From positions 1 through 64,000 of the forward strand of contig JAIQGD010000037.1 in assembly GCA_020072765.1 (NCBI GenBank): 64,000 nucleotides of DNA, read 5' to 3'. Source of the DNA: Terriglobia bacterium (GTDB taxonomy: Bacteria; Acidobacteriota; Terriglobia; Acidiferrales; UBA7541). The position numbers and the translations under genes are program-made. The notes beneath the pieces were generated by a model. The model saw nothing but the letters and a program-made list of their open reading frames with translations. It was not told the origin of the DNA and searched no databases. This document shows, in pieces, positions 10,419 through 17,471 of this stretch (position 1 is the first letter of the stretch; the number at the start of each line of letters is the position of its first letter).

Positions 10419-12404
10419 ATGTGCGGGATCTGCGGCGCCATCGGGATCGAATCACGGGAAGCGGGCCAGGCCATCGTGCGCCGCATGATGGCCGCCATGG
10501 TCCATCGCGGCCCGGACGAAGAGGGGCTTCTGCTGGCCTCCCCGGTGGCCCTGGGTATGCGGCGGCTGAGCATCGTGGACCTGCCCGGCGGCAGCCAGCC
10601 CATCTGGAATGAAGCCGGGACGCTCGCGGTCGTCTTCAACGGCGAAATCTACAATTTCCGCGCCCTGCGCCAAGAACTCGAGGCCCGCGGCCATCGATTT
10701 CGGACGCGCTCGGATACCGAAGTCATCGTGCACGCCTATGAGGAGTGGGGCGAGCGTTCGGTCGAGCGGCTCCGGGGGATGTTTGCGCTCGCCGTTGCCG
10801 AAATGCCCCAGGGCCAGGGCGGCCGGGCCGCGCGGGTCTTTTTGGCGCGGGACCGGCTGGGCATCAAGCCGCTCTACTACGCGCCCATCGATGGCGCGCT
10901 GGTGTTCGCTTCGGAAGTGCGCGCGCTGCTGGCCAGCGGCTGCATCCCGCGGCGACTTTCTGCGGAAGCGGTTCCCGCCTATCTGCTGTTCGGCTCGGTG
11001 TGCGAGCCGGCCACCCTGGTCGAAGGCGTACATTCTCTTCCGCCGGGCCACTCCATGAGCATTCCGGCCGATGTGCCGGTGCGTGCCCCTGCAGCAGTGG
11101 CCTATTGGGACTTGGGGCGAGACGCTGCAGGCGCCACAGCAGGGGAACGCGCCTCGCACACAGCCGGCGCTTCCCCGGCACAGCAAGTGCGCTCGTTGCT
11201 CGAGGACGCGGTCGCCAGCCATCTCGTCGCCGACGTTCCCGTGGGCGTGTTTCTGAGCAGCGGTTTGGATTCGACAGCCATCGCCGCGCTGGCGAGCCGC
11301 GCGCAAACCGGCATCCATACCTTCACCGTCGCTTTCACCGACGCCGACTTCAGCGAAGCGGAAATGGCTCGCCGCACCGCCCGGCGCCTCGGGACCGCGC
11401 ATCGCGAGCTGATGCTTTCGGACCAGGAGATGGTCGCCCGGTTGGACGATGCCGTGGCGGCGTTCGATCAGCCGAGCATGGACGGCATCAACACCTATTT
11501 CGTTTCCTGGGCGGCGCGTCAGGCGGGTTTAAAAGTGGCGCTGTCGGGACTCGGGAGCGATGAATTATTCGGCGGCTATCGCTCGTTTCGCGCGACCTCG
11601 GCCGTCGCGCGGATGGCGCGACTGGGCCGCGTGTTTCCGCATGCGCTGCGCGCATGGCTGGCGGAGGCGCTTCCCGGGGCGGTCGCGCTGCGATCCTCGC
11701 CGGATGCGCTGCGCAAAGTGCTGGCGGCTTGGTCCGATCCGGAGTCGCTTCCCCACGCCTATTTGTTCACGCGCCTGCTGTTCACGCCGCAGGCCGTCGC
11801 GTCCCGGCCGGGCGGGAACTTCCGCTCCTGGGCGGCGCAGCCCTGGTGGCGCTGGCTGGCCGGCTCCGCGGATCAGGCGCGTTCGCTGGACGGTTTCACG
11901 CAAGTTTCCTGGATGGAGTTGCGTTCCTATCTCGCGAACACGCTGCTGCGCGACACCGACGCCATGAGCATGCGCCATTCGCTCGAAGTGCGCGTCCCGT
12001 TTCTGGATGCGCCCCTGGTGGAATACGTGCTGTCGCTGCCGGGATCGGTGAAGGACGGCTCCTCGCGTCCCAAGGCGCTGCTCATCGCGGCCCTTCGGGA
12101 TCTGCTGCCCGAGGAGGTGATCGCGCAGCGCAAGCGCACGTTCACTTTTCCGTGGGAGCGCTGGCTCGGCGGCCCGCTGGGCCGGCGCGTGGCGGAGGGG
12201 TTGACCGACTGGTCGCCGGCTCTGGAACCGCATCTAAATGGGAGCGTCGCGCTGGCAGTATGGAAGGACTATCTCCGAGGCCGCACGACATGGTCGCGTC
12301 CCTGGAGCCTGTATGTTTTGAATGAATGGGTGAAGCGGAATCTGGGCGCTGGACAGTCCGGCACCGCCCAGCAAAGCAGCGCGGCGGCTATTTCGCTCGC
12401 CTGA
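10419..12404 (+). CDS. asnB: Asparagine synthase (glutamine-hydrolysing)-type amidotransferase, second copy
   Basis: The product is 661 aa. MCGICGAIG supplies the N-terminal cysteine nucleophile; HRGPDEEG, NGEIYNF and RSDTEVIVHAYEEWG belong to the glutaminase domain. The ATP-binding loop reads SSGLDS (about residues 280-285), a common variant of SGGxDS, followed by SGLGSDELFGGYRSF. It differs from the copy at 3687 throughout, so it is a separate subfamily rather than a recent duplicate. A carbamoyltransferase begins 48 nt downstream. Two such enzymes in one glycan locus suggest amidation of two different carboxylates, or of one carboxylate plus a precursor. Confidence 0.9.
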   Translation: MCGICGAIGIESREAGQAIVRRMMAAMVHRGPDEEGLLLASPVALGMRRLSIVDLPGGSQPIWNEAGTLAVVFNGEIYNFRALRQELEARGHRFRTRSDTEVIVHAYEEWGERSVERLRGMFALAVAEMPQGQGGRAARVFLARDRLGIKPLYYAPIDGALVFASEVRALLASGCIPRRLSAEAVPAYLLFGSVCEPATLVEGVHSLPPGHSMSIPADVPVRAPAAVAYWDLGRDAAGATAGERASHTAGASPAQQVRSLLEDAVASHLVADVPVGVFLSSGLDSTAIAALASRAQTGIHTFTVAFTDADFSEAEMARRTARRLGTAHRELMLSDQEMVARLDDAVAAFDQPSMDGINTYFVSWAARQAGLKVALSGLGSDELFGGYRSFRATSAVARMARLGRVFPHALRAWLAEALPGAVALRSSPDALRKVLAAWSDPESLPHAYLFTRLLFTPQAVASRPGGNFRSWAAQPWWRWLAGSADQARSLDGFTQVSWMELRSYLANTLLRDTDAMSMRHSLEVRVPFLDAPLVEYVLSLPGSVKDGSSRPKALLIAALRDLLPEEVIAQRKRTFTFPWERWLGGPLGRRVAEGLTDWSPALEPHLNGSVALAVWKDYLRGRTTWSRPWSLYVLNEWVKRNLGAGQSGTAQQSSAAAISLA

Positions 12405-12452
12405 GAGATCCAGACGGGCACTCGATCCGTACGTCCGAAAGATGGTAAACAG

Positions 12453-14246
12453 ATGATCATCCTGGGAATCAACGCGTACCACCCGAACGCCGCGGCGGCC
12501 ATCATGGTCGACGGCCACCTGGTGGCCGCGGTCGAAGAGGAGCGCCTGAATCGCGTGAAGTACGCGGCGGGGCTCCCCTCGCGCGCGATTCAGTTTTGTC
12601 TCGACCGGGTGGGCGCGAAGCTGTCGGAGGTGGATCACATCGGGGTCCCGCGCGACCCCCGGGCGCGCCTGGGCACGAAGCTCCGCTACGCGCTGCGCAT
12701 GCCGCGCTTTGCTCTCGACCGCTTCCGCGTGATGAAGCGCTTCGCCGGCATCCGCGAGGATCTGGCCGGAGCCTTCCAAATCGCGCCGGATGAAATTCGC
12801 GCCCACTTTCACCGTATCGAGCACCACACTGCGCACCTCGCCAGTACCTATTTTGCGTCGCCCTTCGATCGCGCTGCGGCGCTTTCCGCCGACGGGCTGG
12901 GAGATTTCGCCAGTTCGATGTCCGCGGTGGGCGAGGGTCCGAACATGCGCATTCTCGGCGACGTGAGGTTTCCGCACTCGCTGGGGATGTATTACACGGC
13001 GCTCACGCAATACATCGGCTTCTGGAAATTCGGCGACGAGTACAAGGTGATGGGCCTGGCGGCCTATGGCCAGCCGGAATTTCTGGAAGAATGCCGCCGC
13101 ATCGTGCGGCTCGATGGTCCGCTTTCGTTCCGGCTGAATCTCGCCTACTTCACGCATCAAAGCCAGGGCGCCGATATGACCTGGCGCGACGCCGACCGCA
13201 CGCCAGTCCTGGGCCGCCTGTTTTCGCCATACCTGGAAAAACGGCTGGGCCCCGCGCGCAAGCCCGAAGAGCCGCTCACCCAGCGGCATCACAATCTCGC
13301 GGCGAGCATGCAGGCCGCTCTCGAGGAAGTTCTGGTTGGCTACTGGAACGGGCTGGCGCGGCGGAGCGGCCAGAAGGCGCTGTGCCTGGCCGGCGGCGTG
13401 GCGTTCAATTGCGTCGCCAACGGAAAGATTTTCGATGCAACTCCCTTCGAGCGCGTGTTCGTGCAGCCCGCTGCGGGGGACGCGGGCCTTTCGGTCGGCG
13501 CGGCCCTGGCCGTGCGCCATCAGGTCCTCGGCCATCCGCGCGAGTTCATGATGGAGCACGCCTATTGGGGGCCGCAGTTTTCGCCCGAGGAAATTCGTAC
13601 CGTGGTCGGACGAATCGGGCCCTCGGACCAGGCGGAGATCGCCGAACTCGACGAGGCGGCGCTCGTGCAGACCACGGCGCGCCACATCGCGGCCGGAAAA
13701 ATCGTGGGATGGTTTCAGGGGGCAGCGGAGTGGGGTCCGCGCGCACTGGGCAACCGCAGCATCCTGGCCGACGCGCGGCGGCCGGAGATGAAGGACATCC
13801 TGAACCGGCGCATCAAGCACCGCGAGATGTTTCGCCCCTTTGCGCCCTCGATTGCCGAAGAAGCTACCGGCGAGTTTTTCGAGAAGACACACCCTTCCCC
13901 GTTCATGACCTTTGCCTACGCCGTGCGCGCCGAAAAGCGCGCCGTGATCCCCGCGCCGACTCACGTGGACGGCACCGCGCGGCTGCAGACCGTGAGCCGC
14001 TCGGCGAACCCGCTCTATTGGAAGCTGCTGCGCGCCATGGGCGACCTCACCGGCGTGCCCGTGGTGCTGAACACCTCGTTCAACGACAACGAGCCGATCG
14101 TCTGCCGGCCCGAAGAAGCGCTGGAATGTTTCCGGCGGACGCGGATGGATGTTCTGGTGCTGGGCAATTTTGTGGTGGAGAGGAAACCCTCCTCGACCGA
14201 TCAGGAGGCCCCGGCGCAGCCCTTCGCCGGGCGCGAGAGCCAATAG
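12453..14246 (+). CDS. NodU/CmcH-type carbamoyltransferase
   Basis: The product is 597 aa. The N-terminal ASKHA-like domain starts ILGINAYHPNAAAAIM and contains EHHTAHLASTYF (the metal-binding histidine motif) and a DGLGD segment. The C-terminal part carries GWFQGAAEWGPRALGNRSIL and MFRPFAPSI, typical of the Carbam_trans_C domain. The reaction is transfer of a carbamoyl group from carbamoyl phosphate, via carbamoyl-adenylate, to a hydroxyl. In this locus the acceptor is probably a sugar of the glycan. It is followed 3 nt later by a glycosyltransferase. Confidence 0.92.
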   Translation: MIILGINAYHPNAAAAIMVDGHLVAAVEEERLNRVKYAAGLPSRAIQFCLDRVGAKLSEVDHIGVPRDPRARLGTKLRYALRMPRFALDRFRVMKRFAGIREDLAGAFQIAPDEIRAHFHRIEHHTAHLASTYFASPFDRAAALSADGLGDFASSMSAVGEGPNMRILGDVRFPHSLGMYYTALTQYIGFWKFGDEYKVMGLAAYGQPEFLEECRRIVRLDGPLSFRLNLAYFTHQSQGADMTWRDADRTPVLGRLFSPYLEKRLGPARKPEEPLTQRHHNLAASMQAALEEVLVGYWNGLARRSGQKALCLAGGVAFNCVANGKIFDATPFERVFVQPAAGDAGLSVGAALAVRHQVLGHPREFMMEHAYWGPQFSPEEIRTVVGRIGPSDQAEIAELDEAALVQTTARHIAAGKIVGWFQGAAEWGPRALGNRSILADARRPEMKDILNRRIKHREMFRPFAPSIAEEATGEFFEKTHPSPFMTFAYAVRAEKRAVIPAPTHVDGTARLQTVSRSANPLYWKLLRAMGDLTGVPVVLNTSFNDNEPIVCRPEEALECFRRTRMDVLVLGNFVVERKPSSTDQEAPAQPFAGRESQ

Positions 14247-14249
14247 CAC

Positions 14250-15485
14250 ATGCACATCCTGCTTTTGAACGAATATTATCCGCCGGACACTTCGGCGACG
14301 GCGAAGATGGCCGCGCAGGTGGTGGAGACGCTGGCGCGGCATCACCGCGTGACGGTCGTGGCGGGGCGGCCCTCGTACGATCCCGACGAGTTCTATCCCT
14401 TCGCGCTTCTGCGGCGCGACACGCGCAACGGCGTCACCGTCGAGCGCGTCGGATCGACGGCCTACCCGCGCCACCGGATGCGCCGCCGCGTCGCCAACTA
14501 TTTGTCGTATCTGGCGCTGGCGGTTCCCCGCGCCTTGGCCATCCGTCCCGACGTGGTTCTGGCCATGACCGACCCGCCGGTCGCGGGAATTGCGGGAGCG
14601 CTTGTGGCGCGGCTGGCGCGGCGGCCCTTCGTCTACAACATCCGCGACCTGTATCCGGACATGGCCCTGGGCGGCGACATTGTCCGCCCGAGTTGGTGGG
14701 TGCGGCGCTGGGAGCAGATGCATCGCCGGGCGCTGCGGCAGGCGGCGCGCGTGATCGTCCTGGGGGACGACATGCGCAACCGCATTCTGGCCAAAGGCAT
14801 CGCGCCCGAGCGTGTGGTGATCGTTCGCGACGGCGCTGCGCTGCCCGCCGCGATGCCCGACCCTGCCGATCCCGCGGTGCGAAAAATTGCGGAGGAAATC
14901 CGCTGCGGCTTCCCGTTCGTGGTTCTGCACGCCGGCAACCTGGGTTTCTACGGGGCGTGGGGGACGCTGCTGAAGGCCGCGGAAATGCTGCGCGACGAGG
15001 GCGCGGGATTGGTGTTCGTGGGAGGCGGGGCGAACCGCGCGGCGCTGGAGGCCTCCGCGGCGAATGCTCCGAATGTCCGTTTCGTGCCGTTCCGTCCTGC
15101 CGAGCAAGTGCCGCACGTGATGCTGGCGGGCGATCTGCACATTGTCACGGTGCGGAGCGGGCTGGAAGGTGTGGTGGTGCCGAGCAAGCTGTATTCGATT
15201 CTGGCGGCGGGCCGCCCGGTACTGGCAGTGGCGGCCGCGGAAAGCGATGCGGCGCGCATTGTCGTCGAGTCGGGATGCGGTCTGGCGGCCGACCCGGACG
15301 ACGCCGACGCGGTGGCCGCCGCCATTCGGGAACTCCGGCACGACCCGGCGAGACTTGAAATCATGGGCCGCCGCGCGCGCGAAGCCGCGGAAAAATATGC
15401 TAGAGTGAGTGAACTGCAGCGGTTTGTGGACACAATCGAACAGGCAGTACTCGAAAAGAATGGAGGCCATCATCTGGGATCGTAA
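14250..15485 (+). CDS. Glycosyltransferase family 4 (WbuB-like)
   Basis: The product is 411 aa. It opens with MHILLLNEYYPPDTSATAKM, the N terminus seen in WbuB/fucosaminyltransferase-like GT4 enzymes, followed by FVYNIRDLYPDMAL and a donor domain with VLHAGNLGFYGAWG and VVVPSKLYSILAAGRPVLAV. It should add an N-acetylated deoxy-amino sugar or a related residue early in repeat-unit assembly; specificity is inferred from family resemblance only. The 3' end overlaps the next gene by 26 nt. Confidence 0.86.
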   Translation: MHILLLNEYYPPDTSATAKMAAQVVETLARHHRVTVVAGRPSYDPDEFYPFALLRRDTRNGVTVERVGSTAYPRHRMRRRVANYLSYLALAVPRALAIRPDVVLAMTDPPVAGIAGALVARLARRPFVYNIRDLYPDMALGGDIVRPSWWVRRWEQMHRRALRQAARVIVLGDDMRNRILAKGIAPERVVIVRDGAALPAAMPDPADPAVRKIAEEIRCGFPFVVLHAGNLGFYGAWGTLLKAAEMLRDEGAGLVFVGGGANRAALEASAANAPNVRFVPFRPAEQVPHVMLAGDLHIVTVRSGLEGVVVPSKLYSILAAGRPVLAVAAAESDAARIVVESGCGLAADPDDADAVAAAIRELRHDPARLEIMGRRAREAAEKYARVSELQRFVDTIEQAVLEKNGGHHLGS

Positions 15486-16389
15486 GAAAGTCCTCGTAAC
15501 CGGCGGCGCTTCGTTTATTGGCTCGCACCTGGTCGACGCCCTGGTCGAGCGCGGCGCCCGCGTGCACGTCGTCGATGACCTCACCAGCGGCCGGCTCTCG
15601 AACATCGAGCAGCATCTCAAGGGTGGACGCGTCACGTTCCTCCAGGCCGATCTGCGCGAGCCGGGAGTCACCCGCACAGCGATGAAAGGGATCGACATCG
15701 TGTTCCATATCGCCGCCGACCATGGCGGGCGCGGCTACGTCGATCTGCATCAGGCGGGCCCGGCGTCGAATCTGTTCCTCGATGGCGTGGTGTTCTGGGA
15801 AGCGCTGAAGGCGGGTGTGGAGAAGGTGGTGTACGCATCGTCGGGCTGCGTCTACCCCAACTACATGCAGACCGACGCGAAGAAGGAACTCTACCTTCGG
15901 GAAGAAGACGTCAAGCCTCCCTACGACGCCGACAACATGTACGGCTGGGCCGTGGAAAATCACGCCGTGATTGCCATGATCGCCCGCGCGTTTGTCCGGC
16001 AGAATCCGTTCGAAGTGTGGGGCAACGGCCAGCAGATCCGCAACTGGACCTACGTCGACGACATCGTCAGCGGCACGATTCTCGCGGCCGAAAAAATCAA
16101 CGACGGCACCGCGATCAACCTGGGGACCATGGAGCGCGTGCGCGTGCTCGACGCCGTCCAGATGGTGCTCGACTACTCGGGCCACAAGGCCGAGATACGC
16201 CTCCGGCCGGACATGCCGACCGGGCCCGTCAATCGCGTGGCCGATAACCACCTGGCGAAGAAGCTGCTGGGCTGGGAGCCCAAGACTGCGTTCCGCGAGG
16301 GCTTGCGCAAGACCCTGGACTGGTATTTCGCCACCCACCAGAAGGCAGAAGTGAGCGGCATCCTGGAAAAAATGCTGACCGCGCGATGA
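15460..16389 (+). CDS. NAD-dependent sugar epimerase/dehydratase with apparent internal deletion
   Basis: The product is 309 aa. Start ATG 15460 lies inside the preceding gene. The Rossmann loop TGGASFIGSH, the VVDDLTSG strand and ASSGCVYPN show an extended short-chain dehydrogenase. The catalytic Tyr161 is present in MYGWA, but the residue four positions later, normally Lys, is Val165. The sequence jumps directly to ENHAVIAMIARAF, which in relatives lies some 35 residues after the YxxxK motif. The conserved YGWAK and RYFNVYGPR-type segments are therefore missing, in frame, and the enzyme is probably inactive or altered. The rest of the protein (IRNWTYVDDIVSG, the C-terminal substrate domain) is intact. 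ATGA overlap with the next gene. Confidence 0.82.
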   Translation: MEAIIWDRKKVLVTGGASFIGSHLVDALVERGARVHVVDDLTSGRLSNIEQHLKGGRVTFLQADLREPGVTRTAMKGIDIVFHIAADHGGRGYVDLHQAGPASNLFLDGVVFWEALKAGVEKVVYASSGCVYPNYMQTDAKKELYLREEDVKPPYDADNMYGWAVENHAVIAMIARAFVRQNPFEVWGNGQQIRNWTYVDDIVSGTILAAEKINDGTAINLGTMERVRVLDAVQMVLDYSGHKAEIRLRPDMPTGPVNRVADNHLAKKLLGWEPKTAFREGLRKTLDWYFATHQKAEVSGILEKMLTAR

Positions 16390-17471
16390 TGGGAGTTGTG
16401 CGCGTGACGATTCTTCACCCCGATCTCATCGCGTTTGTGGTGGCGCTGTTCGCCTCGCTCGGCTTGACGGTGCCGATTCGCCGCCTGGCCCTGCGCTATG
16501 GCATGGTCGACCATCCCGGCCCGCGCAAGGTTCACCTTAGCCCCATCCCGTTGCTCGGTGGGATCGCCATCTATCTGGGTTTTGTGCTCGCGGTCTTGCT
16601 GACGCGGCACGGCCTGTTCCAACAGCAGGTCGCTGGGATTCTCGCCGGCGCCACACTGGTGGCCGTGGTCGGTTTTCTCGACGACCGCGGATGGCTCCAT
16701 CACCAGGTCAAGCTCTTCCTCGGCATGCCTCTGGCAGCGCTCTTCCTACTCGCTTCCGGGATTCACGCGCAGCTGTTTTCGGAGTTTGTGCCGGGGGCGC
16801 CCGGTATGCTTCTCGACAGCTGCTTCACCGTGTTCTGGGTGGTGGGCATCACCGCGGCCTTCAGCATTCTGGACCACATGGACGGGCTCTGCGCCGGGAT
16901 TGCGGCGGTGGCGGCGCTCTTCTTCACCGCGTCGGCGGGCCTGAACGGGCAGACCATGGTGCGCACGCTGGGCGCCGCCACGCTGGGCGCGGCACTCGGC
17001 TTCCTGCGCTGGAACTTCAACCCCGCCAAAATCTTCATGGGAGACGGCGGGGCGATGTTTCTGGGCTTCCTGATGGCTTCGCTCAGCCTGAAGATTCGCC
17101 CCGAGGGGGCGCACTTCCCAGTGACCTGGCTGGTGCCGGTCCTGATTTTGGGCGTTCCGGTCTTCGATACGACCCTAATCTCGGTATCCCGCGCGCGCCG
17201 CGGGCTGATCCCCTTCACGTCGCCGGGCAAGGACCATGCGGCGCATCGGCTGTCCAACCTCGGGCTCGGCCATCGTGGCGCTGTGCTCGCCCTCTATGGC
17301 CTGGCGGCGGTGTGCGGTGGACTGGCTCTTCTGCTTCCCCACCTGTCGGCTGCTAGCGCGTACGTTCTCGCGGGAATTGTGGCTGTCGGCGGGCTGCTCG
17401 CCCTCCTGTTGCTGGAAGGCGCACCGTATGAACGCCAGGTCAAGATACAAAAGCCTTCTTTAACTCCCTGA
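16386..17471 (+). CDS. WecA/MraY-type polyprenyl-phosphate sugar-1-phosphate transferase
   Basis: The product is 361 aa with about ten membrane helices. Motifs: a KVHLSPIPLLGG stretch near residue 50, the aspartate pair GFLDDRG, ILDHMDGL (a variant of the N-x-x-D-G-x-D-G motif in which the first Asn is Ser), FNPAKIFMGDGGAMFLGF, and HRLSNLGLGHRGAV matching the cytoplasmic HxHH-like loop. The family transfers a sugar-1-phosphate from a UDP-sugar to undecaprenyl phosphate, starting glycan repeat-unit synthesis on the inner leaflet. It ends the tightly packed glycan operon; the gene start overlaps the epimerase by 4 nt. Confidence 0.88.
   Translation: MMGVVRVTILHPDLIAFVVALFASLGLTVPIRRLALRYGMVDHPGPRKVHLSPIPLLGGIAIYLGFVLAVLLTRHGLFQQQVAGILAGATLVAVVGFLDDRGWLHHQVKLFLGMPLAALFLLASGIHAQLFSEFVPGAPGMLLDSCFTVFWVVGITAAFSILDHMDGLCAGIAAVAALFFTASAGLNGQTMVRTLGAATLGAALGFLRWNFNPAKIFMGDGGAMFLGFLMASLSLKIRPEGAHFPVTWLVPVLILGVPVFDTTLISVSRARRGLIPFTSPGKDHAAHRLSNLGLGHRGAVLALYGLAAVCGGLALLLPHLSAASAYVLAGIVAVGGLLALLLLEGAPYERQVKIQKPSLTP

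Follow-up and report, generated by a model that had tools for sequence, protein, structure and literature searches.

Does a sugar epimerase gene that has lost the segment carrying its catalytic lysine still encode a working protein, is the gene on its way out, or did the gap arise while the contig was being made? The gene in question encodes a GDP-mannose-3,5-epimerase-like, NAD-dependent, extended short-chain dehydrogenase/reductase (SDR), and lies in a conserved row of glycan genes within the window (the whole stretch of DNA analysed, 64,000 nucleotides):

10419..12404, + strand: asparagine-synthase-like amidotransferase, glutamine-dependent, of the same conserved gene row
12453..14246, + strand: NodU-like carbamoyltransferase, of the same conserved gene row
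14250..15485, + strand: WcaI-like glycosyltransferase, upstream of the epimerase and overlapping the start of its open reading frame
15460..16389, + strand: sugar epimerase, 309 amino acids, with an internal 96-nt in-frame deletion
16386..17471, + strand: WecA/MraY-like glycosyl-1-phosphate transferase, downstream, its first ATG overlapping the epimerase stop (ATGA, 16386-16389)

A 1154-codon open frame on the opposite strand (12234-15698, − strand), antisense to the carbamoyltransferase and glycosyltransferase genes, is probably a high-GC shadow frame. A plasmid search returned three weak partial matches only.

Orthologues of the epimerase were gathered through a search of relatives and a scan of GTDB contigs, keeping hits of at least 350 bits and dropping weaker paralogues, to give 85 distinct sequences besides that of the window. 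Aligned with these, the window protein showed one gap, where exactly 32 residues (96 nt) are missing after A164 and before V165. The positions that matter around it are as follows:

15847..15849, + strand: Cys130, aligned with catalytic Cys145 of GDP-mannose 3,5-epimerase; retained and invariant
15940..15942, + strand: Tyr161 of YxxxK, aligned with Y174 of that enzyme; retained, with its lysine partner deleted
15951..15952, + strand: deletion junction between A164 and V165; the 32 absent residues are K165-G196 of the orthologue L040
15961..15963, + strand: His168, aligned with the catalytic base Lys217 of GDP-mannose 3,5-epimerase; retained and invariant

At the gap the protein reads Y161-G-W-A-V165 and then ENHAVIAMIARAF, so that the Tyr-x-x-x-Lys of extended SDRs is broken, with valine in the place of the lysine. 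The block was present in all 85 of the other orthologues, starting with K-L at Tyr+4 and ending with an R(Y/F)FTVYGPRG-type strand, and each of the 64 full-length relatives compared has lysine at Tyr+4. In the nearest relative (L040, from genome G001), which is 88% identical to the window gene in amino acids and 83% in nucleotides outside the gap, the block is KLMAELTLQAYHREHKLGAASLRYFTVYGPRG. With the 96 nt went the lysine of YxxxK, the greater part of the catalytic helix and the R(Y/F)FTVYGPRG strand that follows it. The open reading frame, its coordinates and the residues read in the initial annotation (Y161, V165 and the jump from YGWA) were all borne out, as was the absence of a block; the estimate of its size, ~35 residues or ~105 nt, has to be corrected to 32 residues and 96 nt.

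The cut falls between codons and the frame is open, free of stops or frameshifts. A wrong reading frame or genetic code was ruled out by that open frame, by the alignment of both flanks with relatives and by a gap length that is a multiple of three. For nine near relatives, each compared in both directions, homology at the junction came to 0 or 1 nt, and on this ground a deletion between direct repeats and the collapse of a repeat were both rejected; a 4-nt overlap of aligned pieces, seen in one blastn pair (with L040), fails to produce the observed junction. The lesion thus has the form of one that makes a pseudogene or null allele, removing essential residues and being unique against intact orthologues.

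None of the 85 distinct orthologues had the same gap, and a search of 399 class genomes with the junction pattern, which guards only against an identical junction, matched a single genome, the window's own. Taken with the invariant lysine and with a survey of gene pairs described below, this puts the gap far outside what chance would give. When the window's own genome and 60 relatives were searched, 20 of the 61 matched the epimerase at E <= 1e-20: the window itself, three distant matches (G038, G042 and G050) and 16 with a close orthologue, every one of which had the full block. A full-length orthologue as query matched 57 of the 399 class genomes at E <= 1e-100, to be read as a family frequency only, as this threshold can drop gapped relatives and did drop the window's own gene. 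Elsewhere in the genome, the 111-nt query that we took from a relative to represent the lost stretch gave chance matches only (best E 1.27), and the full-length orthologue query found no close paralogue, the next best match being 36% identical. Other SDRs encoded in the genome, where aligned, kept Y-x-x-x-K and were without the cysteine motif SSGCVYP. Relocation of the block, or its supply by another gene, was rejected on the strength of the two genome searches.

Members of the epimerase family (~57-80% identity) were found in records titled Acidobacteria, Chloroflexi, Planctomycetes, Melainabacteria, Omnitrophota, Rokuibacteriota, Nitrospirales and others (L040-L119), a breadth that suggests wide transfer between phyla. 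One Melainabacteria contig (L118) carries two tandem copies, in open reading frames at about 6886 and 7970.

For the profile of the intact family, the best match among solved structures was GDP-mannose 3,5-epimerase (2c59, E 6.7e-49), and the same enzyme was the best fold match of an AlphaFold2 model of intact L040 (8sg0 and 2c5e; TM 0.86). Residue numbers for this enzyme were taken from PDB titles and from PMC2279256, passages of which give C145 and K217 as its acid/base pair; the roles of the cysteine, the lysine and YxxxK are set out in passages of PMC6678494. The lysine at the position of K178 lies within the deleted block. What the window protein keeps includes the Rossmann NAD-binding motif GGASFIGS (of GxxGxxG type) and a match to the extended SDR profile PF01370 (113 bits, best stretch 11-146), with PF16363 matching best over 168-285.

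In the model of intact L040 (mean pLDDT 92.1) a helix spans residues 160-179 and a strand 182-188; the deletion removes all of the helix past residue 164, the strand at 182-188 and the loop to 196, in the numbering of that protein. The AlphaFold2 model of the window protein, built on an alignment that held 64 intact relatives and is thereby biased to the intact fold, had a mean pLDDT of 82.3, falling below 50 at 89-98, 129-131 and 154-167, values that express confidence and do not measure stability. The strand at 247-253 of the intact protein was unformed in this model, which was left with neither a complete Rossmann sheet nor the whole catalytic/dimer helix, and its superposition on 2c5e_B gave TM 0.77 at 4.6 Å as against TM 0.86 at 2.6 Å for the intact model. 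With a Rossmann strand and the larger share of the catalytic helix removed, the fold is probably damaged too. The initial annotation had described the flanking domains as intact, which holds for their sequence but overlooks that the deleted part itself contains that strand and most of that helix; its suggestion that the protein may be inactive is supported by the orthologue alignment, by the removal of both the lysine and a core strand, and by the fold models.

The operon itself varies within the genus. The epimerase was present in 10 of 20 genus genomes (the window's included) and the glycosyltransferase in 17, with seven having the glycosyltransferase and no epimerase. In all seven the WecA-like gene came directly after the glycosyltransferase, the matched stretches lying some 35-110 nt apart; these epimerase-free loci are L139 (G007), L140 (G012), L141 (G010), L142 (G014), L143 (G011), L144 (G002) and L145 (G005). 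The flanking genes lie side by side, and MAG incompleteness is therefore no explanation for the missing epimerase. Judged by gene content, the epimerase gene is dispensable in the operon of this genus, because 7 of the 20 genomes have the same operon without it. Same-family outgroups (L050, L051, L052 and L059) carry the epimerase at this place. A tree of the glycosyltransferase alone was poorly resolved, its strong branches forcing just one change, and for that reason three neighbouring genes were joined; on the joined tree the absences fell in several places, with uneven support. With the gene present there in the outgroups, the absences are probably losses, and their scatter on the tree makes them a candidate for the repeated loss of one sugar-modifying step.

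Two further features of these loci were recorded. Several genus genomes have a second, distant carbamoyltransferase (~34% identity to that of the window) past a gene for an FAD-dependent oxidoreductase, at L137 4516-6246, L140 6570-8279, L143 10977-12764 and L144 6-365. The glycosyltransferase orthologue at G005:C98:2-1159 (L145) is reported with one in-frame TGA, which may be a true lesion or an error in the sequence.

Outside the gap the epimerase is no less conserved than intact copies are. Compared with G001 it had dN 0.068 and dS 0.84 (dN/dS about 0.08), and the window protein departed at 0 of the 50 columns invariant in the other 85 orthologues and at 1 of the 109 columns conserved at 95%. 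With L041 as outgroup, 21 amino-acid changes were found only in the window protein and 7 only in that of G001; the neighbouring genes lean the same way, so this excess was rejected as a sign of visibly relaxed selection on the epimerase; either the lesion is too young for relaxation to show, or selection has not relaxed. On this substitution pattern the gene was under normal constraint until late, which leaves three possibilities: a recent deletion, a deletion that the real genome does not have, or a protein that is still needed. The deletion is placed late because the rest of the protein is constrained, its changes lean as in its neighbours and the gap is unique; a long-term adaptation it is not, as far as these comparisons tell.

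That the deletion might be absent from the real genome deserves weight. The real gene would then be full-length, the 96 nt having been lost in the making of the contig through a chimeric read, gap closing or a minority variant, and we regard such an assembly or library artefact as rather unlikely while taking it seriously. The assembly of this soil acidobacterium (3.78 Mb, 96.6% complete; nearest named relatives Acidobacteriota, including assemblies titled Terriglobia and Candidatus Acidiferrales) is in 152 contigs, all near relatives with the epimerase gene have the block, and outside the gap the gene appears fully functional, as if nothing had happened. Against this, junction homology in the nine near relatives does not exceed 1 nt and hence offers no repeat to collapse, which makes a simple collapse unlikely, and a k-mer assembler would be expected to need reads crossing the junction. 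We also surveyed gaps between 60 pieces of this genome (G000), the window among them (979,612 bases), and 63 pieces of G001 (1,239,777 bases), covering 130 non-overlapping orthologous gene pairs and 51,425 aligned columns. The epimerase gap was the only internal gap of at least 25 amino acids in either genome, although smaller gaps leaned mildly to G000 (8 against 3 at a length of at least 8 amino acids, and 3 against 0 at 15 or more). A grossly deletion-prone assembly was thus rejected as the sole cause, with only one gap of at least 25 amino acids in 130 pairs and with that lean of the smaller gaps kept in mind.

The shortened protein could instead be a pseudoenzyme with a kept role, still able to fold and to bind NAD or a sugar nucleotide, and acting as a scaffold, a regulator or a non-redox 3,5-epimerase using Cys130 and His168 on the keto-sugar of another enzyme; we hold this to be very unlikely. 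The kept frame, the conservation of the rest of the protein and the retention of Cys130, Tyr161 and His168 (aligned with C145, Y174 and K217 of GDP-mannose 3,5-epimerase) agree with such a role, but a recent event explains the conservation equally well, and the window model loses confidence around the active-site loops. A precedent exists in WbmF, which is without the triad Ser/Thr and is proposed in passages of PMC2279256 to be a non-redox sugar SDR epimerase; as described there, however, the WbmF structure is complete but for one triad residue, whereas the window protein has lost a Rossmann strand and the bulk of the catalytic helix. No second genome has the short form (among the 85 orthologues, and among 399 class genomes by junction pattern), so that selection on it is undemonstrable. 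We give only a very slight chance to the specific version in which a minimal SDR binds a nucleotide sugar and epimerises a keto-sugar without redox through Cys130/His168, or else scaffolds the glycosyltransferase and the WecA-like enzyme. An active protein would mean, surprisingly, that a sugar epimerase can do without the YxxxK lysine and a core strand; nothing here points to activity. The catalytic helix in SDRs is usually part of the dimer bundle. This matters for complementation in trans, in which a complete paralogue would form mixed dimers with the short protein or take over its reaction: the helix of the bundle (the SDR dimer helix bundle is described in passages of PMC2279256) is itself truncated in the short protein. 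Elsewhere in the genome, extended SDRs that retain Y-x-x-x-K do occur, for example at contig C12 39647-40579, but the best paralogue is 36% identical and without the SSGCVYP cysteine, so mixed dimers and a shared reaction are both unlikely, and we find complementation hard to credit at all. Neither work with a partner nor a new role, the functional readings offered in the initial annotation, has support: the block was found nowhere else in the genome, the best paralogue is distant, and none of the relatives covered shares the gap.

We therefore favour, as the probable explanation, an ordinary GDP-mannose-3,5-epimerase-like enzyme of a glycan operon in which a clean loss of 96 nt, in frame and recent, has given this lineage or strain a null allele. 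By stripping the YxxxK lysine, most of the catalytic helix and the next strand, the deletion would leave a protein incapable of the C4 oxidation and reduction that such epimerases need; that protein would probably fold poorly, as the product of an allele on its way to loss. The loss would be tolerated since the operon can apparently work without the enzyme, as the seven genus genomes without an epimerase at the same place suggest. The stop of the epimerase gene and the first ATG of the WecA-like gene overlap, so that a cut that keeps the frame would spare coupled translation into the downstream gene, if this ATG is its true start. Counting against decay is the lack of the frameshifts and stops that decaying genes often have; an in-frame length has a one-in-three chance of arising by luck alone. 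If the deletion is real, the locus offers a snapshot of a glycan operon losing an enzyme, through a cut that keeps the frame, with the neighbours intact and the gene already absent from other members of the genus. The gap is surprising on sight and ordinary on inspection, an artefact being possible at the lower probability given above.

Among known systems, WbmF of Bordetella (2pzj, 2q1s) is a sugar-nucleotide SDR with an incomplete triad and a proposed non-redox 3,5-epimerase; according to passages of PMC2279256 it is without the triad Ser/Thr only and was solved with NAD bound, in contrast to the window protein, which misses a whole structural block. GDP-mannose 3,5-epimerase (2c54, 2c59, 2c5a, 2c5e and 8sg0) is the best match in both profile and fold, and its Cys, Tyr and general-base positions align with those of the window family, although it has Lys217 where that family has His; the window protein differs from it in being without the YxxxK lysine, the rest of the helix and the following strand. 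Identity between this enzyme and the intact orthologue is about 28%, too low to fix the substrate. UDP-glucose 4-epimerase TM0509 (4zrm) and the Mth375 epimerase (6pmh) share the extended SDR fold and came a close second in the sequence and fold searches; 4zrm shows SSTGGAIYG where the window family has the SSGCVYP cysteine motif, and the deletion is found only in the window protein. Bacterial glycan loci also carry pseudogenes and null alleles made by in-frame deletion, in which one sugar-modifying enzyme is lost and the operon is otherwise intact. Set beside the null alleles of such loci, the window gene differs in its open frame, which runs through without a stop or a frameshift.
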